A stretch of DNA of 64,000 nt from Dysgonamonadaceae bacterium (GCA_031275735.1 JAISOJ010000009.1:1-64000); one strand, 5' to 3'. Shown: positions 29,167-43,860, numbered from the stretch's first letter. Notes: generated by a model from the sequence alone, not told the origin. Numbers and translations: made by a program.

Positions 29167-29632
29167 TTTAGAAAATTGGACGATACCTAATAAAAATGCC
29201 AATAATGACTTCATAGTGCGAGTTTTCTATAAACAACACTCATAAAAAGCAAATTTCAGTGGTGCAGGTAAAAATCATTGAGAAAAAATTATATATTTCA
29301 ATCTTTTTTTATACATCTATTGTAAAAGCCATAATTTATTTCATTTTTACATAATTATTGATAATTTTTTTCTAATTTTGCCACAAAATTTAGGAGTTAA
29401 TAATTGTCGTATTCATTGTGGGTAAACATTTAGAAACAATTTACAAAATTTTCTTTCGATGAAGAAATTCAAGTGTTTTTTAATTTACAATCGTTTATCA
29501 CTAACAAACATTTCACCGTTATTGCACATTACTCTGAATCATTTTTTAAGATATGAAAAAAGGCGGCGCGATTTTCCGGTTTTTCACCCAAAAACGATAA
29601 CTTGGGATTAAAATTTAACAAAAAATTATACC
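29167..29632 (+). repeat. Long direct repeat copy 1: conserved non-coding leader upstream of the module-protein array
   Basis: Aligns along its whole length with 35185-35663 (e.g. ...aggagttaataattgt[c/t]gtattcatt[g/a]tgggtaaacatttagaaacaat...cttgggattaaaa[t/c]ttaacaaaaaattatacc). Confidence 0.88.
29373..29380 (+). promoter_or_regulatory. -7 box TAATTTTG within leader copy 1
   Basis: Matches TAnnTTTG and is conserved in the second copy as TAACTTTG (35393-35400). Confidence 0.5.
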
Positions 29633-29753
29633 TTATAATGAATTAAGGAGAAAAGAATTAATAAAAAATAGGCTTCGGTTATTAGTTCTTTATTAGCAAT
29701 TTGGAAAGAAGTGTAATATTAAATATTTATATTAAACAATTAAAATCACGTTT

Positions 29754-30470
29754 ATGAATGCAACAGTTTATTTTAGAAGACTGAAGTTTATTGTTTCCTT
29801 GTTAACACATAATTTTTGCTTCGGTATCGAATCCGTGCCCAAGAAGGCAGGATTATTCGCTCTGTTGGTCGCTTTACTTACATTCAACGCCAAAGCTCAA
29901 GTAACGATCGGCGACATCACCACGCCCAACAAACATGCTATCCTGGAATTGAAAACTGCCGGCGACGGCCGTGGCCTCTTATTGCCGGGAGTTAAACTGG
30001 AGGGTTTGACTGCTACAACGCCCTCTTTTACCTCGGACGATGTGCCGCAGGGCCTTCTGGTGTATAATACCGGCGCCGACGCTTCAAGTCTCCTTACCGA
30101 AGGATTGTATTATTGGAACGGCTCCCATTGGGAAGCTACCGGCAACAATTGGTTTTACATGCCGGCTACCACTTTTAATACGGATTCAAGCAAACCGGCC
30201 AGCGAAAACAGCAAGGATTTGTATGCCGTTTACGCCGCTCAATTTGCTTCTTCGGCCACTCAAGTGATTGGCAGTACAGGCGCTCCGGCTATTCATACGC
30301 TAATTCCGGCTATTCCGGCGCGTACCGATTTCTATTATTATGTCATTTCGTATGATACAACCGTCTTTGATAATATAAGTATCAATGCGAATGGAGAAAT
30401 GACCTACGACTTGCTGAAAGACGGAGACGAGTCGACTTACATAAACATTGTGTTTGTGAGAAAACGTTAA
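29754..30470 (+). CDS. Predicted secreted protein with shared N-terminal module (type 1 of 4)
   Basis: Hydrophobic signal ...KAGLFALLVALLTFNAKAQ then VTIGDITTPNKHAILELKTAGDGRGLLLPGVKLEGL...PQGLLVYNTG...GLYYWNGSHWEA. Confidence 0.72.
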   Translation: MNATVYFRRLKFIVSLLTHNFCFGIESVPKKAGLFALLVALLTFNAKAQVTIGDITTPNKHAILELKTAGDGRGLLLPGVKLEGLTATTPSFTSDDVPQGLLVYNTGADASSLLTEGLYYWNGSHWEATGNNWFYMPATTFNTDSSKPASENSKDLYAVYAAQFASSATQVIGSTGAPAIHTLIPAIPARTDFYYYVISYDTTVFDNISINANGEMTYDLLKDGDESTYINIVFVRKR

Positions 30471-30560
30471 TCGAAACAAACCCTGTTATGCGAAACAAAT
30501 AATTTAATCCAGTGTATGTTATCAATTTTTCATCACAGGGTCGAAAAAAATATAAAAAAA

Positions 30561-33500
30561 ATGATACAATCAAATAAAAAATACAAAGGAGGGAAGCTAT
30601 GGTTTATCTGTTTGCTCTTTTTATCGGCAGCCATGCACGCGCAAACGCAAACGCCGGGAGGAACGAGCTTGAACGTCAAACTTTGGTTGGCCGCCGATAA
30701 ACTGAACGGGACAAGTCCTTTACAGAACAATCTTACAAATGTCAATCCCTGGAAGGATTTGTCGGGCAAGGGCATGGACTTCATACAAAATGGCAACAAT
30801 GAGCTTCCCCAATTGACCTACAGCGGTATGAATTTTCACCCATCGGTAGAATTTCTTAGAGGAAGCAATGCCACTGCTGATCAAACTAAAAAGTTGGTTT
30901 CCAATCAATATTTTACCACATCAGCGGATAGCGCCTATTATACGTTTTGGGTGTCCACTTTCAGCAGTGGCGGTGTTGCAGGCACCTACGCAAGTGTCTT
31001 TACTTTTGGGGGAAATGCTGATCTTAACAGAAACGAAAACGGTTGGAGAATAACTGGTCCAGCTATTTATCATACCACCCGTAACTCGGCTAACCGCCAC
31101 CACAACGATTTAAGCAAAAATTATGGTATAGGCTCCATTTTTCGTCCCAACAGCAGCAACGCTAACTCCGAATATCAATACCACAACGGAGATTCGGCTG
31201 CATTTACCGGAACAACAATTAGTAATATGACTACGTTCAACGCTATAATAGGGAATAGTAATACAACCAATAGTGATTATTTTTATGGACAAGTGCAGGA
31301 AATCATTGTTTTGTCCGTTCCCAAGACTTCCGGATTAGACGCCGGCGAATTGAAAAAGGTACATTCCTACCTGGCTATAAAATACGGGCAAACGATGGAG
31401 AATTTCCCCGATTTTGTCAATTCATCGGGAACCAATGTCTGGACGGGTACAAACAATACGGGCTATACCTCGCATATCTTCGGGATTGGGCGCGATGATG
31501 CTTCCGGTCTTTACCAGAAACAGTCGGCCAATTATGAATTTCAGGATCTGACGGTATTTGTCGGCGATAACATTACCGCAATCAACAGTCAGAATACCGG
31601 AAATCTGGACAATGGAACCTGTCTGATGCTCGGTTCGAACGGTTCTTCTACCGGAAGAACACCTTATTCTTATGGCGCCGGAACAGTATTTGCCAACGGC
31701 ACAACGTTGAATAATCCAATTACCGAGCGTTTTAACCTGGCTTACAAGGCACAACTGACAGGTACAAATTCAATGGAGGTAAACATGCGCATGCATCGTA
31801 CGCGGCCGCAATACATTTTGGTTTCCGATAATCCGGCTTTTCCCGCAGCTTCCACCCGAATTTATTCTGTTGACAAAGAAAACGATATTGCCCGTAATGT
31901 AGTGATCAATCCGGGCGATTACATCGGATTCGCTTGCCATCCAACGAGCGGGCCGGGTGGAGTTACGGACGGGTTAAAAATGTGGCTGAGAGCCGACTAC
32001 GACGCCACGTTGAATATAGATGGAAACGGAGACGTTTCGGAATGGCGCGACGTCAACCGCGACGATTTTAAATACGAATATTTAAATGCCGGCACGGGCA
32101 ATACAAAGCCTCGTTATGAATTGAATCATCCTAAAATGAATTTCCATCCGTCGTTGCATTTTCCAAGCGTAGGAGCATTCTTAAGTTCGACGACCGGACT
32201 TATGAGTGTCGCAGCCCCGGATGCACTCTCATTTATTTCTCTGGTGAATGTAACAGAATACGGAGCAGTGGTAGATGGGGTAACTGCAACTCATTTTATG
32301 GGCTTTGGGAATACGTATCCGGGTACGGGTACGGGCTTGATGTCTGCCCGAAGGCCTTCTTTCGGTATAGGAGTAGAAAATGATGCGGGAACCGGGCGTT
32401 TTATACATTATCAAACTAAATCCGAATCCGTTAATGGGGTTAAGAGACTGTTTAGCAGAGGAGCAACCACACTTACTTTGCATCAAATTTCAAAATCCGG
32501 GACAAATGACTTTAATATAGAATTTGAAATAGGCGCCAATAATGAAACTTTTACCAATCAAACGGCTCCCGACAATTATAGTGCTATGATATTAAACGAA
32601 TCTTCCATGTTGGGAACCGGTTCTGCCAGCAATAGGAATCTGCTTGGTTATATGAGCGAAATGATAGCTTACGAACGTATTCTTACCGCTGAAGAAAAGA
32701 ATAAAATTTATTCTTACCTGGGGATGAAATACGGTGTTACCCTGGATCCGGAACCGGGTAATTTAGCGCTCAATTACGACTATGTCCTGTCTGATAACAC
32801 GTCGGTTTGGCAGGGAACGTCATCGCCGCTTCACAGGGTTTACCACCATAATGTGGCGATGGTGGTCAGGGACGACGCTGCCGACTTGATGAACAAGCAG
32901 GCACGCTCGACCGATACCGGCGACTTTATTGTGATGGGCGTAAACGGTACGGTACTGAGTCTTGATGGCAACGTTGATATGGCGGGCTTTACGAGCGATC
33001 TGTCGGCTATTGCCTGGGGAAACAACGGAGAGCCTTACGACGCGACCGCGGCAACCAAGGTAGACATTAGCGGCCTTTCGCATGTATGCGGCAACATGGA
33101 CTATCGGGCAAAACGGATCTGGATGATAGACAAAACGGCAAGCGGCGACCAAAAAATCATGATTGGCGTCGGAGGCGAGTATTTCCACGAAAGTGGCGCC
33201 AATTATCAGGTATTCCTTCTCTTTGGCGATTCGGAAGACCTGGAGAATAACGAATGGAGTCAGGTTGTTCCTACCAACTATTACAACGACCTCCATCAGG
33301 GGCTTTATACGCTAACCGACGATCTTACTTATTTTACCATTGGAGTAAAAGAATTGCCGGGAAGTTGTGAAACCTGTCAGTTTTCGAACTACAAGAACTT
33401 GTATTTTACTTCGAGTAACTGGCCGAACGGCACAACATCCAAGACTTTTGATTTAGGCGAGGGATTTTCGGCTCAGGTAAATGTAGCGCTTGCTACCGGC

Positions 33501-34970
33501 AGCAATTTCTATAGCGGATACCCCCAAGCGTCGTCCAATACTTTGCGCGAATACCGGCGACTCAATTTGGACAGGGAAATGACGACAACCATTTCCCATT
33601 ATGCAACCGGCACCTCTACTTCCTATCCGGTAGCCGCTTCTTTCCAGATTTACGAAATAGACAGGGAAGGAAATGCCCTGGACGAAGTGGATATTATTGG
33701 CTATTGCGGCAACAGCGAGGTATATCCGATCTTAAGTTACGTAGCGGCGGCAAATGCCAGTTCATACACGATTGTTAATACGCACCATGTTTCGGCCAAA
33801 CATCAGCCGACGCCTGCTTATGCGGATAATGCGGGAAAACTGAATGTGTTGTTCGACTATCCGGTCGAGAAGATCATAATCAAACACAACGCTATCGGAA
33901 CAGGTACAGCAAGCGGTTCCCAACGGATTGGCATCGGGCCAATACAATTCTTTTGTACGCCTCCTATTCCGGAGCCAAACGAAGACGGCCTGGTTCTTAC
34001 TAAACTGGCAACACCGTCGAGCAACGTATCGTTGTGCGATAATGTGTCCTATACATTCCAGCTATACAATACGAATTGTGTGGCCATGGATGTGAACTTT
34101 TCCGATGTTTTGCCGACAGGTATGAAATGGCATGCGGAATCGCTTCAAATTTCGGACACACTTGCCGCCAATTATCAGGTCAATGCCTATGCCGACCAAA
34201 AGGTATTGAGTATCACCGGACTAACTATCCATCCGGCATCTTCCACCCGAATTTCCGCATCAGCGTTTTTTGATGAAAATGCGACCGCAAGTACGACTTA
34301 TTCAAACCAAAGTTCGATCGAATACAAGAATTTTAGCGGGTTCGACAAGTCGCTGTTGAGCTGCGACCGGTATATTACGGGTGGTTGCGCTCCTACATCC
34401 GTCGTCACCAGTTCGGTAACAACCCGAACACTTCCTGTCGAGTTGATGCATGAAACAAACAAATCGGTTTATGGAGCCAAAGACAACATTACCATTCGTG
34501 TCCGGATCAATAATCCCAATAATTCAATCGCCGGTGTTGTATTGAATATCTCCTACAATGAGGCATTCACTTACAACACTTCTTCACCCTTGCGAAGTTC
34601 ACCCAATATAAACGGAATCGTGACTCTCAATTCGGAGCCGGGTATTTTAAATGTCACCGGCATAACCTTGCCGGATAATACAGAGGGTTGGTTTGAGTTT
34701 GATCTGAAAGCTCCGGAAAAAGACAATTTGGAAAAAGTGTTTAACGAGAATGGAGATATGGTGGATGTGGACGGAAATGTAGTGACCGATCCCAAACTAC
34801 AGGCCATTTTCCCCTTGCTGGTCGGGTATAGCTTTACCGCTACCACGAGCGATAAATGCATGGAAATGACTTTCTTGAATGCCAGTGGCGAAATACAAAT
34901 ACCGTATAATATTGCCTCTAAAGCATATATTATTAGTAACAAGCACGTTACCGGAATTCCGAAACGGTAG
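30561..34970 (+). CDS. Giant secreted protein with two LamG/DUF8202-like domains and a C-terminal DUF11/adhesin-like region
   Basis: ORF call begins 30516; in-frame ATG 30561 gives signal MIQSNKKYKGGKLWFICLLFLSAAMHAQ. VKLWLAADKLNG...SYLAIKYGQTM recurs as LKMWLRADYDAT...SYLGMKYGVTL. Confidence 0.72.
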   Translation: MIQSNKKYKGGKLWFICLLFLSAAMHAQTQTPGGTSLNVKLWLAADKLNGTSPLQNNLTNVNPWKDLSGKGMDFIQNGNNELPQLTYSGMNFHPSVEFLRGSNATADQTKKLVSNQYFTTSADSAYYTFWVSTFSSGGVAGTYASVFTFGGNADLNRNENGWRITGPAIYHTTRNSANRHHNDLSKNYGIGSIFRPNSSNANSEYQYHNGDSAAFTGTTISNMTTFNAIIGNSNTTNSDYFYGQVQEIIVLSVPKTSGLDAGELKKVHSYLAIKYGQTMENFPDFVNSSGTNVWTGTNNTGYTSHIFGIGRDDASGLYQKQSANYEFQDLTVFVGDNITAINSQNTGNLDNGTCLMLGSNGSSTGRTPYSYGAGTVFANGTTLNNPITERFNLAYKAQLTGTNSMEVNMRMHRTRPQYILVSDNPAFPAASTRIYSVDKENDIARNVVINPGDYIGFACHPTSGPGGVTDGLKMWLRADYDATLNIDGNGDVSEWRDVNRDDFKYEYLNAGTGNTKPRYELNHPKMNFHPSLHFPSVGAFLSSTTGLMSVAAPDALSFISLVNVTEYGAVVDGVTATHFMGFGNTYPGTGTGLMSARRPSFGIGVENDAGTGRFIHYQTKSESVNGVKRLFSRGATTLTLHQISKSGTNDFNIEFEIGANNETFTNQTAPDNYSAMILNESSMLGTGSASNRNLLGYMSEMIAYERILTAEEKNKIYSYLGMKYGVTLDPEPGNLALNYDYVLSDNTSVWQGTSSPLHRVYHHNVAMVVRDDAADLMNKQARSTDTGDFIVMGVNGTVLSLDGNVDMAGFTSDLSAIAWGNNGEPYDATAATKVDISGLSHVCGNMDYRAKRIWMIDKTASGDQKIMIGVGGEYFHESGANYQVFLLFGDSEDLENNEWSQVVPTNYYNDLHQGLYTLTDDLTYFTIGVKELPGSCETCQFSNYKNLYFTSSNWPNGTTSKTFDLGEGFSAQVNVALATGSNFYSGYPQASSNTLREYRRLNLDREMTTTISHYATGTSTSYPVAASFQIYEIDREGNALDEVDIIGYCGNSEVYPILSYVAAANASSYTIVNTHHVSAKHQPTPAYADNAGKLNVLFDYPVEKIIIKHNAIGTGTASGSQRIGIGPIQFFCTPPIPEPNEDGLVLTKLATPSSNVSLCDNVSYTFQLYNTNCVAMDVNFSDVLPTGMKWHAESLQISDTLAANYQVNAYADQKVLSITGLTIHPASSTRISASAFFDENATASTTYSNQSSIEYKNFSGFDKSLLSCDRYITGGCAPTSVVTSSVTTRTLPVELMHETNKSVYGAKDNITIRVRINNPNNSIAGVVLNISYNEAFTYNTSSPLRSSPNINGIVTLNSEPGILNVTGITLPDNTEGWFEFDLKAPEKDNLEKVFNENGDMVDVDGNVVTDPKLQAIFPLLVGYSFTATTSDKCMEMTFLNASGEIQIPYNIASKAYIISNKHVTGIPKR

Positions 34971-34988
34971 AATTTCGAAATAACAGGA

Positions 34989-35033
34989 ACAGAAGTGTCC
35001 AAAAAGCTGAAAAGACTTTTTGAACACTTCTGT
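34989..35033 (+). terminator. Strong hairpin after the giant LamG-like gene
   Basis: acagaagtgtccaaaaag / ctttttgaacacttctgt, 17/18 paired, 9 nt loop; no clear U-tract follows. Confidence 0.5.
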
Positions 35034-35184
35034 TATATAGCGATAACGGAGACGACTGAAGAGACTGTCTAAAAAGCACTTTTGACACATTGTAAAGAAC
35101 GCCAATGACAAGTAAATGATTTGTATTCAGCGATATAGTAAAAAAAATGCTCAAAAACTAAAATTCAGATGATGATTTTTCATA

Positions 35185-35663
35185 TTTAGAAAATTAGACG
35201 ATACATAATAAAAATGCCAATAATGAATTCATAACGCGAGTTTTTTATAGACAACGCTCATAAAAAGTAAATTTCAGTGATGCAAGTAGAAATTATTGAG
35301 AAAAAATTATATATTTCAATCTTTTTTTTATATATCTATGGTAAAAGCCCTAATTTATTTCATTTTTATATAATTATGAATAATTTTTTTTCTAACTTTG
35401 TCGCAAAATTTAGGAGTTAATAATTGTTGTATTCATTATGGGTAAACATTTAGAAACAATATGCAAAATACAAGATTTTCTTTTGATGAAAAAATTTAAG
35501 TGTTTTTTATATTTATAATTTTTTATTATTACAAACATTTTACCATTAATGTACATTATTCTGAATCATTTTTTAAGATAATGAAAAAAGGAGATGCTGA
35601 TTTTTCCGATTTTCACCCCAAAGAAAGATAGCTTGGGATTAAAACTTAACAAAAAATTATACC
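35185..35663 (+). repeat. Long direct repeat copy 2: conserved non-coding leader
   Basis: Aligns with 29167-29632; ends 16 bp before the ATG at 35680. Confidence 0.88.
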
Positions 35664-35679
35664 ATAATAAGTGAGAAGT

Positions 35680-36354
35680 ATGAAAAAAAGAAATGTTTTT
35701 GGGTATGTGGGGATGTTTTTCTTGATTACCTATTCGATTTCGATGCAAGCGCAAGTAGTGATAGGTTACAATAAAACATCGGAAAAATTTTCCGTATTGG
35801 AACTGCTTTCTACTACAGGCGGCTTGCGCTATCCACAACTAACTCAAAGTCAAAAGGATGCTTTGAGTCTGACTTCAAATCCTTTAGCCGGTGGTTTAAT
35901 CGTTTTCAACAAGGATAATGCCGGAAATCTGGAATATTACAATGGCAACAGTTGGACGGTAGTCTATACTCCGTTTGTTATCCGTTCGATTCGTCAATTG
36001 GGCAGAGACCAGGGCGTAAGTATTACCGGTACACAATCTATTTCTGTTCCGGTAACTGCAAGCGAGGTAGCATCGCAAACTTACCACATCCAATTACCGG
36101 GAACTATTCTTGCCGACATAAGCAAGTTAAAAGTCGGGAAATACCTCGATTTCGATAATGTTGTTCAAAGTGTTACGCTCAACAATACGTCGATAATAAG
36201 TACAGACAATATTTTTACGGTTACTTTTCGTCAGCGGGCGGTTGATTTAATAAAGCAATCTTCCGAACCGATTCGCTTTACCTTATACGCTACTTACGAG
36301 GATAATGGCATCGCCAAAGAAGTCGATTTTGAAGTAACGTTGCAAAGGGAATGA
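35680..36354 (+). CDS. Predicted secreted protein with shared N-terminal module (type 2 of 4)
   Basis: ORF call begins at a GTG at 35671; ATG 35680 gives MKKRNVFGYVGMFFLITYSISMQAQVVIGYNKTSEKFSVLELLSTTGGLRYPQLTQSQKDAL...GGLIVFNKDNAGNLEYYNGNSW. Confidence 0.72.
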   Translation: MKKRNVFGYVGMFFLITYSISMQAQVVIGYNKTSEKFSVLELLSTTGGLRYPQLTQSQKDALSLTSNPLAGGLIVFNKDNAGNLEYYNGNSWTVVYTPFVIRSIRQLGRDQGVSITGTQSISVPVTASEVASQTYHIQLPGTILADISKLKVGKYLDFDNVVQSVTLNNTSIISTDNIFTVTFRQRAVDLIKQSSEPIRFTLYATYEDNGIAKEVDFEVTLQRE

Positions 36355-36396: not shown

Positions 36397-37896
36397 ATGA
36401 AAAAATGGTTTTCTTATACTTTAATCTTTTTCTTGGCCTATGCTTTCGAATCGAAAGCGCAAATAGTTATCGGCGATCAGAAAGAGCCTGAGAATTTTTC
36501 TGCTCTTGAACTTATATCTAAAAACGGAACAGGAGGCATCATTCACCCTCAAATGACTGAAGCGCAGAGAGATGCGATTACAGCATCCTTGTCTTCCTCC
36601 CAAAAAACAGAAGCGCGGGGATTAGTAATTTACAACACCACCGAAGGTTGCCTTAACCTCTACCGAAATGAAAGCGAAGGTTGGGTAAGCCTCTGTTCGG
36701 GAGTAATTATTCCCCTCTTGGCGGAAGACGTCGCTGAAATACGTCCGATGCAGGGAACTATACCCGGCGACGGTAAAAAAGGAAAAGCCAAATACGACGT
36801 CGCACAAAGCAATTCATCCCTCGACGGCAGTTGCGGCGTAATCGGCTCGCCCAGTCGTCCCGGCGATTTCGGCAATTTCAACGATAATACCGATTTACGA
36901 AAATATTATGAAATCGTATTCCCCGCAGGGACTTATTCCTACCTGGTTGTCGGCGAACGGGAATATGCCACTCAGTTTTTAACCGTAACCGGCGGACAGG
37001 AAGGCAGCTTTAGCGGAGGAGCATACCCCATAATCGTGGATTTCGACCCGAAAATAAAAGAACTGGCTCGCGGCCTCGAAGAAAACAACGCCCTTTACAC
37101 TACGATCTTTGCTGTATATCAAAAAGACGGACAATGGTACAAAGCCGAATACAAACTTTCGGTGATGGATTGTCTGGGATGCGGCGTTCGAATACAAACC
37201 GGCGAAAAGGAATGGATGCGGGTAGCCTGTTACAATTTGGGCATTACTAACACTCTCGCCGATGCATTGTCTTACAGCGAAGATCTCATAGGCGACCGCT
37301 ACCAATGGGGACGGCAAACCGACGGACACGAAAAAACCGGCGCCTATATTTATCGTCCAAAAGTCGCTTTAGGCGAAATTGTTTACCCTGCTGCGCCGCT
37401 GGATAGCTTAGATGCCAACGGACAGCCGATCGGAGAGAGAAGAGGAGCTTTCATACCGGGAACCGGCGCCTTTTCCGGCATCGGCGGCGATTGGAGCGTA
37501 TTGCATCACCCTGCTTTATGGGGCGACGGAACGCAAAACGCTCATCCTGCAAAAACCGTTAACGACCCCTGTCCGAAAGGCTTCCGAATCCCATCGAAAA
37601 CGGAAATGGAAAAAATCTTGAACGCATTAAACATAAATACCAGCCTCTGGGGAGGCTTGGCTAAAGACGACGGTATCTTGTTCTTACCTTATGTTTACAA
37701 CAAAGAAATTAGCGGCACTTGGAATAGCGGCAGTCAGTGTTCGTATTGGACGGCAACCCCCGGTGCAACGCCTTCCGTCAGCAAAATTGATTTCTTGACA
37801 AAAGCGCAGGCACTTATTATTCAATCCGACGGAACGCCAAGCATGGGCGCCGTAGAAAAAGCCAAAGGCGCAACTGTCAGATGTATTGCCGAATAA
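36397..37896 (+). CDS. Predicted secreted protein: shared N-terminal module plus FISUMP-like C-terminal domain
   Basis: QIVIGDQKEPENFSALELISKNGTGGIIHPQMTEAQRDAI...RGLVIYNT; C-term YQWGRQTDGHE...NDPCPKGFRIPSKTEMEKIL...YWTATPG...VRCIAE. Confidence 0.75.
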   Translation: MKKWFSYTLIFFLAYAFESKAQIVIGDQKEPENFSALELISKNGTGGIIHPQMTEAQRDAITASLSSSQKTEARGLVIYNTTEGCLNLYRNESEGWVSLCSGVIIPLLAEDVAEIRPMQGTIPGDGKKGKAKYDVAQSNSSLDGSCGVIGSPSRPGDFGNFNDNTDLRKYYEIVFPAGTYSYLVVGEREYATQFLTVTGGQEGSFSGGAYPIIVDFDPKIKELARGLEENNALYTTIFAVYQKDGQWYKAEYKLSVMDCLGCGVRIQTGEKEWMRVACYNLGITNTLADALSYSEDLIGDRYQWGRQTDGHEKTGAYIYRPKVALGEIVYPAAPLDSLDANGQPIGERRGAFIPGTGAFSGIGGDWSVLHHPALWGDGTQNAHPAKTVNDPCPKGFRIPSKTEMEKILNALNINTSLWGGLAKDDGILFLPYVYNKEISGTWNSGSQCSYWTATPGATPSVSKIDFLTKAQALIIQSDGTPSMGAVEKAKGATVRCIAE

Positions 37897-37924: not shown

Positions 37925-39196
37925 ATGAAACGAAAATATAATGTCACGTGGTTACTTGTCGCTCTTTTTTTTCTGTTTGCCTTTCCGGCGCGAAGTCAGG
38001 TGAAAATAGGAAATACAACGGATCCGTGGCCATTTTCCTTGTTGGAAATAGAAAGTACCACAGGCGGCGTACGTTTGCCGCAATTGACGGGAGCGCAGGC
38101 CGCCGACTTGAAAGATTACCTGAATAACCAGGCTTCTCAAACCGAAAAAGAGCGGGCGCAAGGTTTATTGATATACAATACGGATACCAAGAAAATTGAA
38201 ATGTGGAACAATAATAACCGGAACTGGAAGCGATTGGAAGAAACCGTTGATTGCGTCAATGCCGAAAGCCTTACAATTTCAGCGCCGCTTACCGTTTTTA
38301 CGGAATACGCCGGCGACCTCGTCTTAACGGCGAACATCACCGGCGCTTCCCCCAGTGCAGACCCGCTCTATACCTGGTACCGGAACGATGAACCCATTGC
38401 CGTGGGCCGCGTCTTGACCGTCAAAAAAGAAGATTTGAGCGCCCAATGGAGCGGAATCTATACCGTCGACGTCTTAACTTGCGGATTCAGCGCCGTTGGA
38501 AACCTCTCTTCTTCGCCGGTAAACATCACGGTAAACAAAAAGGAACCGATAAAATATCAAAATACGTCATTATTTTATTCTTATTCTGATTTTATTAATC
38601 TCATTGAAGTGTCCGGATATCATGTATCAGCCTCGCAAGCGCCTGATTGCCTCTTCCTTCGCACTCCCAAGAGAAGTATTTCTCAAATTACCCTGAGATC
38701 GGGACAGGGATATGACCTGGTCACCAGCCACAGTACCGTCTGTCACGGTTACCGAAGTCCTTCTAATTCTTTTTCCGTGATTTTTTTTGATGCGGAAGGA
38801 TATCATTTGACCTCTTCCCCCATCCAAATGCCGTCTGAAAATCAGGATATTTCGTTTGCAACATCAGAAAAAAAGAACATGACGCTTAATGGGGATGCCT
38901 GGACGCTCTATCAACCCAAATCCGCAGAACCAACGCCGGGGCGCTACGTAGATTTTTGCCGCAGCCTGTTTTTCGACCACCCGCGCGCTTCGCTCCTATC
39001 CAAAGCGTTTTTAGAAAAATATGCCGCTTATTTAAATTCAACCATTATACCCGCCGGCGATTATTGGGTGCTGGACAAAACGTTTACTCCCCTGAAAGGT
39101 ACGGTTTCCTATCCTTCGGGAAAATTTACTTTAGTTACTTCGGAAGCTTCTTCAGGTAACTTTAACGTAAGATGTATTCAACCGGCAACTAATTAA
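37925..39196 (+). CDS. Predicted secreted protein: shared N-terminal module plus Ig-like domain
   Basis: QVKIGNTTDPWPFSLLEIESTTGGVRLPQLTGAQAADL...QGLLIYNTDTKKIEMWNNNNRNWKRL; then YTWYRNDEPIAVGRVLTVKKEDLSAQWSGIYTVDV. Confidence 0.7.
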   Translation: MKRKYNVTWLLVALFFLFAFPARSQVKIGNTTDPWPFSLLEIESTTGGVRLPQLTGAQAADLKDYLNNQASQTEKERAQGLLIYNTDTKKIEMWNNNNRNWKRLEETVDCVNAESLTISAPLTVFTEYAGDLVLTANITGASPSADPLYTWYRNDEPIAVGRVLTVKKEDLSAQWSGIYTVDVLTCGFSAVGNLSSSPVNITVNKKEPIKYQNTSLFYSYSDFINLIEVSGYHVSASQAPDCLFLRTPKRSISQITLRSGQGYDLVTSHSTVCHGYRSPSNSFSVIFFDAEGYHLTSSPIQMPSENQDISFATSEKKNMTLNGDAWTLYQPKSAEPTPGRYVDFCRSLFFDHPRASLLSKAFLEKYAAYLNSTIIPAGDYWVLDKTFTPLKGTVSYPSGKFTLVTSEASSGNFNVRCIQPATN

Positions 39197-39321
39197 TCTC
39201 TTAAAAACGAAAAAAAATGAAAAAAATAAATATGAAACATTCCTGTATTTCACATACCCAAGAGTATGAAAATGCGTATTCGTTTACTTGTCAACTCGTT
39301 TACTCGTTAACTCATTTTCGT

Positions 39322-42300
39322 ATGAAATTCAAACTATTTTGGATGGGCTTGTGCCTGACATTTGCGCAAGGAATATGCGGACAAATCGCTCCGGGGCAAA
39401 CGGATACAACCGATGTAGCTACCTGTTTCGATTTTATGGGAACCGTAAATTTTTCTTCTACTTACCGATGGATTACCAGTTATACCGGCCCTACCGCGCC
39501 GGACGACTGGACAGGTGGGCTATTAAATCCAAATACAAATAGAATGGTCGACTTCTCAATCCCTTTAGTAGCTGATTTAGATGGAGATGGATATCCGGAA
39601 ATAATTGGGTTGGGAGTATCCGGCACTGGTGGCTCGACCGGATATTATAATAATATTCAAATATACAACGGACAAACCGGTGAAATGATTACAAAATTAT
39701 ATTTACCGGGAACTGGTAATCATGATACATATTATTATTATCATTCCTCCTATCATGGTTCTCCGTGTCCTATGGCAATTGTGGATTCGGACAGGGACGG
39801 CATCAAAGAATTAATTTTTGCCTTTCCTAACAATAATTACTTAGCTTCAAGCTCTTATTGTAATAAGTTAGTTTCATTGGAATTGATTCCGCAAAAAAGC
39901 AACGACATAACGACAGATTATACGCTAAATGAAAAATGGCAGTCAACAGCTAATTATAATGCGGATTTGAGTGCCAACTACCATAAACCGCTACCCACTG
40001 TGGTTGATTTGGACGGCGATGGAAAAGCGGAAGTGGTAGTGTATAACCGGATATACAATGCGGCAACAGGAGCGCTATTGTCCAGTTTGGAAGGAAGTTC
40101 TTCTTTTATAGGGGGAGACGAAGGCGCTTATAATAATGATGATTACCTCGGCTTCAATTATGTGTATGACATGGACCTCGACGGGATTTATGATATCGTT
40201 GCCGGAGGCAAGATATATAAGATGCCCCAAAATATGAATGGTACTTTTTCTCCTACGACAATTACAATGACAGGCGTTCCTGACGGACGTACAGGAGTTG
40301 CCGATATTAACGGAGACGGTAGTCCGGATGTAGTAGTGGTTAAGAGGCTAGACAATGATGACATAAGAATAGTCGTTTGGAATCCTAATTTTTCCAATGG
40401 AGGGAATTCCTCGTCCCCTACAATTTTAGCCGATAGAACTTTTATGCATGAAGGCTACACGGGAGCCGCCTTCGCTAGCAATTCGTATGTTTTTATTGGC
40501 GATATCGACGGCCGAGTACAACAAACGACAGACAATCAAAGCTATCGCTTGCCGGAGATTGCTATATTGTCGGGACCTTACTCCTATGTGAATAGCAAAC
40601 ACTTAACTGTGCATCCGAATGTAGCGGGAATCTCTACGGCTGACGGCGGTTTTCCTACTACAGGAACCACTGCGGGAGAGGGCGCTATCGTCGCTGTTAC
40701 TTGGGATGCAAACCCCGGTGTATCGAAGGAAGAGCGCCTAAAACTATCGTTTATATTGGAACATGATGATCCCTCGCGTAATACCGGATTCACCATGTTT
40801 GATTTTGATAACGACGCTCAACAGGAAATTTGTTACCGGGATGAAAAGTCTTTACGCATCATAAAACCGATCAAGCCATTAATTAAAAATACTGCGACGG
40901 CAGCGTCAAACGGTATTTTATTCAAACAAGCAGTCATCTCTTATACGGGATTTGAATATCCGGTTATTGCGGATATAGACAATGACGCTTCTGCTGAAAT
41001 TATTGTTACAGGACGCAATGCGAACTCTGGCGCTTATTATTATGCATATATTTACGCCGTAGGTCCGAAGAACGATAAATTTGCTCCCGCATTGGGGGTT
41101 TGGAATCAATATATGTACGACCCGTTTAAAATCAAGGCGGATAGTTTAACTACGCCGATTGGTCCTGCACCCAATCGCCTGAGCCCGGAGTTCACGTATA
41201 ACCGGGTGGTTCGAAATGCAGAGGGTACGATCATAAAAACGGCAGAGGGATACCAACCTTATAATGCAACCATTATGCAAGACATGCGCTTCAAGAATAC
41301 GCCGGGAACTCCACATGGGAGCATAGAGCCGATTATTTTCCTGACGGAAGCCTATATTGTTACTACCGGAGCAGATAAACCAACCATAACGGGGACAAAT
41401 ACTACGAACGGGAAAATAACCCTCTATGTGGGTAATAAATCGACTGCGGAAACGGACGTAAATGCCAATACGCCGATTTCCATCTATCAAAACTCCGTAT
41501 CGAAAGCCAATTTTGTAAAAAAAGTAAGTCTTTCCGGATGTGGTTTTACGGGAGGCTCCATCCAAGCCGGCCAAACGGCAAAGATTGAAATTACGGGAGG
41601 AATAGACCCGACAGCCATCTATATCCTGCGTTTGGGAGACGATAGCGATTTGTCGGGTATAAACGAAATTTGGCGTTTCGGCCTCAATCCTCCGGCAACC
41701 AACAATACAAGCAACCAAACGGGTCCCTCTTCGCTAGCTTTCCGCGATTGCGACTGGAGCGATCAGGAAATAAAAGTAGCTCAACTTGTGGCCAACGACG
41801 ATATATATACCATTCAGGAACACAGTTTTGTGGATATTGATTTATTGGCCAATGATATTATTCCCGCCGATGCATCGATCAATATTAGAGAAGGCTTGAA
41901 CGGAGAGCTTTTGTCCGGACCTGTCGCCGGTGATCTCACCTGGTCGGGAAATGTACTTCGCTATACGCACAACGCAAAGACCGATCTGACGGATGGAATC
42001 GAATCTTTTCAATACCAAATTTCTTATATGTTTCCCGGCGCCGGTGCGGTAACAACGAGGACGGCAACGGTGTACATCTATATTTTGCAAAGCGAGGCCA
42101 ATGCTTTTGTCAGTTGTTACGGCGATAATTACCTGATTCAATTGAAAGAATTGCCCGGCGGCGTTCAATTCTATTGGTCCAGCGGGTTTTCCACTAAGGA
42201 AGAAACAACTCCCCATAGCTCCTTGCAACTATCGAATATAGTAGAGGATACTATTTTCTATATCCGTCCCGTTCCCACCGCAGCGCCTTACAATGGCCTT

Positions 42301-43860
42301 TCATTCCCGCGGGGCAAGTTGCATGTTTCAGTCGTACCGGAGGAAATCGATGGAAAACGAACTATTTTGAAATGGACAGGCGCCGCCAGTACCAATTGGT
42401 TTGATCCGAACAACTGGACGGATAACGACGGTAATGCAGTAACTTATTCGCCCTCTAACTGCACAGACGTAATCTTGTCGGAAGGGAAAAGCCGCTATCC
42501 GACATTAAACAGACCCGGAATAGCTAATAATATTTATATAAAAAACCGGGCAATGCTAGGGAATACTTTCCAACTTACATACGAAAAAGCTGCTTTCGAA
42601 CTGAAATTGAAGGCAAAGGAACGCAACCGCCTGTTGATGTACTCGGCGCCTTTCGGCAAAACTTATTCCGGCGACTTTATGTTGCGCGGCAAAGATGGTT
42701 ATCCCATCAAAAAAGCGGTTTACATGAGTTTCTTCCAGGCAACGAATCCGGATAATTCTTCCGAAACAGCAACGGCATACCACTTTACGCAGTCGTTCAG
42801 TAAAGAAGACGAGGAATTAACTTTAGGCAAAGGGTTTATCCTGTCTGTGGACGGTACGCAGGATACGGGCGATACCTCGTTCCAATTCCCGTCGCCGGTC
42901 GATCAATACGAATATTATTATGACGACGAATATATTGATAATTTGACAACACCGCCACAGGCGCCGTTGGCGCCGTTCTCCGGAGTGTTGGATAGAGGAA
43001 ACCCGGAGAAGAATAGCCGGTTCATTGCCGAAATGAGCAGCGGCGGCACATACAGCGCCTCCGGCTATTTTGATTTGACCATACCCAACGACCTTCCCGG
43101 CTCAAAATTGTTGATGCTGGTAAACCCGTTCAACTCCTTTTTAAGTGTGGATTCCGTTTTGGTGGGAAATGCAACAGTCTTGGAAGCCGGCCGCTACTAT
43201 ATTTGGGACGGTTCGGAGATAAGCGGTTTTATATCTTTTCAAAAGGCGAAAAATCAATGGGTCGTCGGCAATCCGGATGCCCTGCCGCAAACGCCTTCGC
43301 CACTCCTGATACCTCCTTACCAGGCTATTTTTGTATTGAAAAAGAACCCCGGTTCAATGGCAACCGTCCGTCTTTCCGAAAACTGGACAACCACAGACGG
43401 TGTCGGCTATGAATTGCGTTCGGGACACCAAACGGATGCGGGCGGCGAAGAAAACGCATGGTATCTGAATGTTTCGTCGGGCGAATTGGCCGGTCGTACA
43501 GCCTTGTTCGCTTCGGAAGAAACGACACATACGCCGGCTTTGTTTTTCGACGGCGACCAAGCGCAATCATTGGATATTTATGTGATTGACAAACAAGGGA
43601 AAGCTGTTTCGATAACGGGTTTCTCCGCCGAAGAACAAGAGGTGCAACTGGGACTTCGGCTGAAACAGTCCGGCGAAATCGAAATGGATTTGCAAGGCTT
43701 GGATACGGACGGCTATCAAGTGTACCTGAAAGATGAAGACCAACTGATTGATTTGTCAGACGGCAAGAAATACAAAACAACTATTGTTCGTCCGGTAGAT
43801 GCCAATAAAACTTACTTTGAAGTCAACGACCGTTTCAGTTTATTAATTAAAAAGAATTGA
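39322..43860 (+). CDS. Giant secreted FG-GAP/VCBS-repeat-like protein
   Basis: ORF call begins 39217, but ATG 39322 starts a good signal peptide MKFKLFWMGLCLTFAQGICG. Repeated D-x-D-x-D-G motifs: VADLDGDGYPEIIG, VDLDGDGKAEVVV, MDLDGIYDIVAG, ADINGDGSPDVVV. Confidence 0.75.
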   Translation: MKFKLFWMGLCLTFAQGICGQIAPGQTDTTDVATCFDFMGTVNFSSTYRWITSYTGPTAPDDWTGGLLNPNTNRMVDFSIPLVADLDGDGYPEIIGLGVSGTGGSTGYYNNIQIYNGQTGEMITKLYLPGTGNHDTYYYYHSSYHGSPCPMAIVDSDRDGIKELIFAFPNNNYLASSSYCNKLVSLELIPQKSNDITTDYTLNEKWQSTANYNADLSANYHKPLPTVVDLDGDGKAEVVVYNRIYNAATGALLSSLEGSSSFIGGDEGAYNNDDYLGFNYVYDMDLDGIYDIVAGGKIYKMPQNMNGTFSPTTITMTGVPDGRTGVADINGDGSPDVVVVKRLDNDDIRIVVWNPNFSNGGNSSSPTILADRTFMHEGYTGAAFASNSYVFIGDIDGRVQQTTDNQSYRLPEIAILSGPYSYVNSKHLTVHPNVAGISTADGGFPTTGTTAGEGAIVAVTWDANPGVSKEERLKLSFILEHDDPSRNTGFTMFDFDNDAQQEICYRDEKSLRIIKPIKPLIKNTATAASNGILFKQAVISYTGFEYPVIADIDNDASAEIIVTGRNANSGAYYYAYIYAVGPKNDKFAPALGVWNQYMYDPFKIKADSLTTPIGPAPNRLSPEFTYNRVVRNAEGTIIKTAEGYQPYNATIMQDMRFKNTPGTPHGSIEPIIFLTEAYIVTTGADKPTITGTNTTNGKITLYVGNKSTAETDVNANTPISIYQNSVSKANFVKKVSLSGCGFTGGSIQAGQTAKIEITGGIDPTAIYILRLGDDSDLSGINEIWRFGLNPPATNNTSNQTGPSSLAFRDCDWSDQEIKVAQLVANDDIYTIQEHSFVDIDLLANDIIPADASINIREGLNGELLSGPVAGDLTWSGNVLRYTHNAKTDLTDGIESFQYQISYMFPGAGAVTTRTATVYIYILQSEANAFVSCYGDNYLIQLKELPGGVQFYWSSGFSTKEETTPHSSLQLSNIVEDTIFYIRPVPTAAPYNGLSFPRGKLHVSVVPEEIDGKRTILKWTGAASTNWFDPNNWTDNDGNAVTYSPSNCTDVILSEGKSRYPTLNRPGIANNIYIKNRAMLGNTFQLTYEKAAFELKLKAKERNRLLMYSAPFGKTYSGDFMLRGKDGYPIKKAVYMSFFQATNPDNSSETATAYHFTQSFSKEDEELTLGKGFILSVDGTQDTGDTSFQFPSPVDQYEYYYDDEYIDNLTTPPQAPLAPFSGVLDRGNPEKNSRFIAEMSSGGTYSASGYFDLTIPNDLPGSKLLMLVNPFNSFLSVDSVLVGNATVLEAGRYYIWDGSEISGFISFQKAKNQWVVGNPDALPQTPSPLLIPPYQAIFVLKKNPGSMATVRLSENWTTTDGVGYELRSGHQTDAGGEENAWYLNVSSGELAGRTALFASEETTHTPALFFDGDQAQSLDIYVIDKQGKAVSITGFSAEEQEVQLGLRLKQSGEIEMDLQGLDTDGYQVYLKDEDQLIDLSDGKKYKTTIVRPVDANKTYFEVNDRFSLLIKKN

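Follow-up and report, generated by a model that had tools for sequence, protein, structure and literature searches.

A non-coding upstream region probably copied between the heads of two surface-protein operons in a Dysgonamonadaceae genome

The window is the whole 64,000 nt stretch of DNA analyzed here (GCA_031275735.1 JAISOJ010000009.1:1-64000), from a Dysgonamonadaceae bacterium whose genome is a draft of 2.43 Mb in 114 contigs. Two blocks of genes for secreted proteins lie next to each other in this window, and each is headed by a copy of a non-coding sequence of about 475 bp, termed the leader. Block 1 consists of leader copy 1, ORF1 and ORF2, and block 2 of leader copy 2 and ORFs 3 to 6. 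The features are as follows.

29167–29640, plus strand: leader copy 1, AT-rich (26% GC), non-coding, heads block 1.
29373–29380, plus strand: TAnnTTTG box (TAATTTTG), candidate Bacteroidetes -7 element in copy 1, predicted only.
29754–30470, plus strand: ORF1, 238 aa N-module protein, its mature part opening with AQVTIG..., block 1.
30516–34970, plus strand: ORF2, 1484 aa giant secreted protein, block 1.
34988–35034, no strand: 19-bp inverted repeat, 95% complementary, 3' of ORF2, a possible terminator between the blocks.
35185–35666, plus strand: leader copy 2, AT-rich (22% GC), non-coding, heads block 2, ends 14 nt before the ATG at 35680.
35393–35400, plus strand: TAnnTTTG box (TAACTTTG), candidate Bacteroidetes -7 element in copy 2, predicted only.
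35680–36354, plus strand: ORF3, 224 aa N-module protein, opens block 2.
36397–37896, plus strand: ORF4, 499 aa N-module protein with a weak FISUMP (Fib_succ_major) match, under the curated cut-off.
37925–39196, plus strand: ORF5, 423 aa N-module protein.
39217–43860, plus strand: ORF6, 1547 aa giant protein with FG-GAP and Big_9 domains, block 2.
39232–39327, plus strand: start-codon element (ATGAAACAT...CGTATGAAA), about 93 nt, a dispersed, in-frame N-terminal extension of ORF6.

The inverted repeat at 34988–35034 is, from its sequence, consistent with separate transcription units for the two blocks. ORF1 and ORF3 are identical at 31 of 96 residues, all within the N-module (about 95 aa, 32%), and a comparison of the two giant proteins, ORF2 and ORF6, gave no detectable similarity. 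The downstream proteins are thus alike in the N-terminal module alone, as an earlier note on this DNA had described. ORF6 also has a Pfam match to PliI, a periplasmic lysozyme inhibitor, at residues 583–618, which is barely over the curated cut-off.

The same note had placed two non-coding copies of about 470 bp at the heads of the two blocks, and repeat search and alignment confirm these, with 89% identity over about 475 bp. The copies are identical in 420 of 473 ungapped columns (88.8%) with 15 gap columns in the core, and BLAST between them gives E = 5e-159. There are 37 transitions and 16 transversions among the 53 substitutions. Mismatches are evenly spread (window variance P = 0.26), and the longest perfect tract common to the copies is 27 bp (P = 0.71). 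The edges of the repeat are sharp: similarity ends about 14 nt before the ATG at 35680 and about 114 nt before the ATG at 29754. Since both ends precede the start codons, and at unequal distances, the leader is not part of a duplicated gene that is still recognizable.

Each leader copy has a TAnnTTTG box, at 29373 and 35393 as previously noted, but neither box rises above chance or has a -33 element. Of the dinucleotide shuffles of each copy, 36–45% contain one or more such boxes; in DNA this AT-rich the box is expected by chance and is not significant by itself. Sigma-A promoters of Bacteroidetes follow a spacing rule for the -33 element, and no TTG or TTTG is found at that spacing in either copy. 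Start sites predicted from the boxes, at 29387 and 35407, are 367 nt and 273 nt from the respective start codons, in agreement with the leader lengths of about 275–365 nt proposed earlier. A promoter in the leader is plausible from these sequences, and the two operons probably share one by way of the copied leader. A search with the promoter pattern TANNTTTGYCRCAAAA gave four other matches in the genome, which represent a different repeated sequence.

The two leader copies in the genome are about 6 kb apart, in the same orientation and both at operon heads; the draft is 76% complete, and extra copies could sit in the missing quarter. A BLASTN search that the earlier note had proposed revealed no further copies, either in this genome or in 36 genomes of the same genus and 393 other genomes sampled across the order. 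None was found in plasmids or phages, and a search by exact pattern in genome and viral collections returned nothing. Elsewhere in the genome and in the genus, the leader has weak BLAST matches that are short and AT-rich; these were taken as chance, with the exception of one in a relative (G034:C73). This 60-nt match resembles a promoter and lies immediately before an operon that includes a homologous giant gene; a promoter motif common in Bacteroidetes could also account for it.

Homologues of ORF2 are present in nine genomes of the same genus, and in several a small N-module gene lies ahead of them. The block 1-type operon, i.e., a small N-module gene and then a giant gene, is found in G013, G010, G033 and G036. 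The gene order of block 2 is entire in G032 (contig C43), where ORF6 identity is 41%. The two types of operon occur separately in relatives and without the ~475-bp leader, which argues that the operons are probably much older than the leader copy. Upstream regions in the relatives differ in sequence from the leader, and the homologous operons of G013, G033 and G032, which lie at different loci and are highly diverged, lack it. A TAnnTTTG box is found upstream of the homologous operon in G013, G033 and G034, about 180–190 nt before the first gene in G013 and G033. The nearest relative, G018, has ORF6 and no detected block 1 homologue; in its assembly the head of block 2 is missing, and the contigs break at these genes and lie elsewhere. 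An empty site was sought by synteny with G018 and G032, and the flanks are not syntenic.

The favored explanation, with a probability of about 0.72, is that one upstream region was copied once, fairly recently and locally, and now heads two older surface-protein operons that evolved independently. The upstream region is common to both operons, and the genes beyond the N-module are not homologous. Evenly spread mismatches, together with 70% transitions, are as would be seen for drift after a single duplication, and local copying is the simplest and most economical account of the pair. Judged by these comparisons, it is probable that the two operons have long, separate histories and that the leader copy is young. 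One operon head would have received the region, a presumed promoter with its long untranslated leader, from the other, either through ectopic recombination or gene conversion, or when a repeat-flanked block 1 was inserted. Both copies would act as promoters, the leader would be a plain 5' untranslated RNA and not a folded switch, and the outcome would be co-expression of the two operons. Counting against a single copying are the chance-level boxes without a -33 element, the fact that two copies cannot show direction or mechanism, the G018 assembly without the block 2 head and the incompleteness of the draft. The earlier description of shared control DNA over divergent coding cassettes survives with the control role presumed, but its readings as a mobile family or an RNA structure are not supported.

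A wider reading is that, in this genus, recombination within each genome repeatedly swaps or homogenizes the 5' regions of N-module surface-protein genes without regard to the coding part, so that variable surface cassettes come under shared regulation. It widens the favored explanation, and the likelihoods of the readings need not sum to one; it is put forward tentatively, with the odds somewhat against it. The relatives concerned have 18–35 N-module genes per genome. In G036, groups of genes share 90–98% of the 120 nt before the ATG, and their coding nt 121–270 are mostly 59–87% identical. Thirty gene pairs have at least 85% identity over the 120 nt upstream, and 20 of the 30 have less than 72% in coding nt 121–270. 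Over all pairs, upstream identity is uncorrelated with that of coding nt 121–270 (rho 0.05, Mantel P 0.23). Similar upstream sharing is found in G010 and G011, and between genomes upstream identity is at most 0.69 in these comparisons. Many N-module genes of G010, G011 and G036 lie close to a contig end, a few hundred bases away at most, as is expected where upstream DNA is repeated. From this pattern, the sequences suggest that upstream regions have been exchanged within genomes. Against this reading, the shared leaders of the relatives are genome-specific and differ from the leader of the window in sequence and in type (hairpins and minisatellites, often without TAnnTTTG), and they may be spacers inside gene arrays and not promoters. 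Recent gene duplication with fast coding divergence could explain a part; upstream identity in G036 is weakly correlated with that of the signal-peptide region (rho 0.24). The window has two copies only.

Two types of sequence are seen directly upstream of N-module genes in these relatives. Loci L099, L103, L107 and L108 of G036, and loci L093, L094 and L106, have a long inverted repeat in the last ~130 nt before the ATG. It has the form GGTATCG...CGATACC in one of these two groups and GGCATCG...CGATGCC in the other, apparently by compensatory changes, and may represent a structured intergenic element. Minisatellite-like, genome-specific repeats are present at L091, L092, L105 and L110 (G036), L111–L128 (G010) and L129, L132 and L134 (G011).

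The start-codon element is a different repeated sequence. In ORF6 it ends with ATG AAA, where the signal peptide of ORF6 begins. It has at least 40 copies in the genome with 74–92% identity, L232–L260 among them. In 24 of the 30 copies examined, the frame that starts at the first ATG of the element runs for 280 residues or more, or reaches the limit of the sequence examined without a stop, and most such frames pass through a second ATG and then a signal-peptide-like sequence. The genes headed in this way encode SusD, a TonB-dependent receptor, GH2, GH28 and arabinofuranosidase enzymes, as well as trypsin-like, PNGase F-like, thioredoxin-like and MscS-like proteins. Where an ATG follows, the five length variants differ from one another by multiples of three. 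Stop codons are depleted, with one among 89 distinct changes compared with 5.1 expected (P = 0.014), and synonymous changes are not in excess; the frame is therefore kept open, with no conservation of residues over and above that of the DNA. Copies are also present in G015 (L270, L280, L289), and shorter octamer-repeat matches occur in several relatives. In 294 other sampled genomes of the order no copy was found at E 1e-10, and G032 has a homologue of ORF6 without the element. A kinship of the ~475-bp leader with the start-codon element was considered and rejected, as alignment scores are within those of shuffles.

Two further repeats were observed. Runs of the octamer CGTYWACT are found away from the start-codon element as closely spaced forward and reverse pairs (G000:C29:12121-13757, and in G020, G022, G024 and G018); by their arrangement these resemble REP or hairpin elements. 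Four near-identical sequences around TATCTTTGCCACAAAAAATGG (L166, L167, L170 and L171, on G000 contigs C2, C3, C33 and C79) lie near contig ends and probably represent the 5' end of a multicopy element.

A broader proposal is that the 5' ends of secreted-protein genes circulate in the genus independently of the genes. Whole leaders would be exchanged among surface-protein operons, a cassette of about 93 nt would, in this genome, have been joined in frame to the start codon of at least two dozen unrelated secretory genes, and the leader pair would be one young product of this traffic. This proposal is speculative, and its truth is doubtful.

A competitor to a copied upstream region is that block 1 itself arrived behind the leader, either integrated by a single crossover or put there by gene replacement after a tandem duplication; the repeats would then be the ends of an acquired cassette of about 6 kb. 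The direct repeats flank block 1 exactly, block 1 homologues are found in relatives without block 2, and G018 has ORF6 and no block 1 homologue was detected there. Set against these points are the failure to find a relative with an empty site, the non-syntenic flanking genes in G018 and G032, and the fact that no integrase or circular intermediate was seen. An inserted cassette is considered unlikely.

A MITE-like mobile promoter that inserted twice would leave a single non-coding segment with sharp ends over non-homologous genes, which is what is observed. However, two insertions of this kind are very improbable: the two copies lie close together in one orientation at operon heads, none is present elsewhere in the DNA searched, and the inverted-repeat scan gave no clear terminal inverted repeats on either copy. 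No obvious target-site duplication is seen at the leader ends when the alignment is read by eye, with no empty site for comparison. The earlier note had also regarded the pair as a recombination substrate. Long near-identical tracts suited to direct-repeat recombination are absent, with a maximum of 27 bp perfect at 89% identity; recombination between the copies is possible but a weak reading.

Least credible of all is a riboswitch- or attenuator-like RNA structure under selection in both operons, which the long presumed leader (273–367 nt) kept in both might suggest, but folding z-scores of +0.25 and -0.43 against shuffles, best folds that differ between the copies, the lack of any Rfam match to the leader at the gathering threshold (a scan of the window gave a tRNA only) and the lack of a leader homologue in relatives all argue against it. 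The check for covariation, limited to two sequences, gave a consensus fold with compensatory changes in 0 of 50 pairs. Mismatches are not clustered away from any core, and there are no conserved islands such as a riboswitch or operator would leave, although this is a weak test at 11% divergence. A coding leader peptide was also rejected: the small ORFs are not common to the copies and differ by indels.

The leader pair, as a two-copy duplication of an upstream region, indicates how unrelated surface-protein operons can gain the same control by copying of the DNA upstream. Taken with the pattern in the relatives, it makes testable whether large surface-protein repertoires are regulated by moving leaders and not genes. 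More unusual is the start-codon element, in which unrelated secreted proteins have a repeated coding 'front end' in common. This element and the upstream sharing in relatives are the parts that deserve attention.

A conserved 5' region over divergent surface-protein coding sequence is characteristic of the sap genes of Campylobacter fetus and the vmp genes of Borrelia, and both families recombine through 5' homology into an expression site. In the window, by contrast, both copies come with a leader of their own, and the operons that follow do not represent alleles of a single family. The consensus of Bacteroidetes sigma-A promoters includes the TAnnTTTG -7 box (PMC4747536, PMC9723704). A box is found at the equivalent place in both leader copies, but here, where it is known from sequence alone, it is at chance level and the -33 element is absent. 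BrickBuilt of Porphyromonas gingivalis is a minisatellite-containing MITE with promoter elements; it is likewise a repeated non-coding DNA of Bacteroidales and has been discussed as a putative mobile promoter (PMC4596501). BrickBuilt is present in 19 copies, with tandem repeats of 23 nt and with inverted repeats at its ends, whereas the leader has two copies and none of those features. Upstream regions that are replaced or copied independently of the gene have been described as intergenic-region switching or horizontal regulatory transfer, where regulatory upstream DNA likewise moves without its gene (PMC5890482). The alternatives described there are at one locus across strains, whereas the leader copies are at two loci in one genome. 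Events of this kind are known, and the leader pair is a new example.
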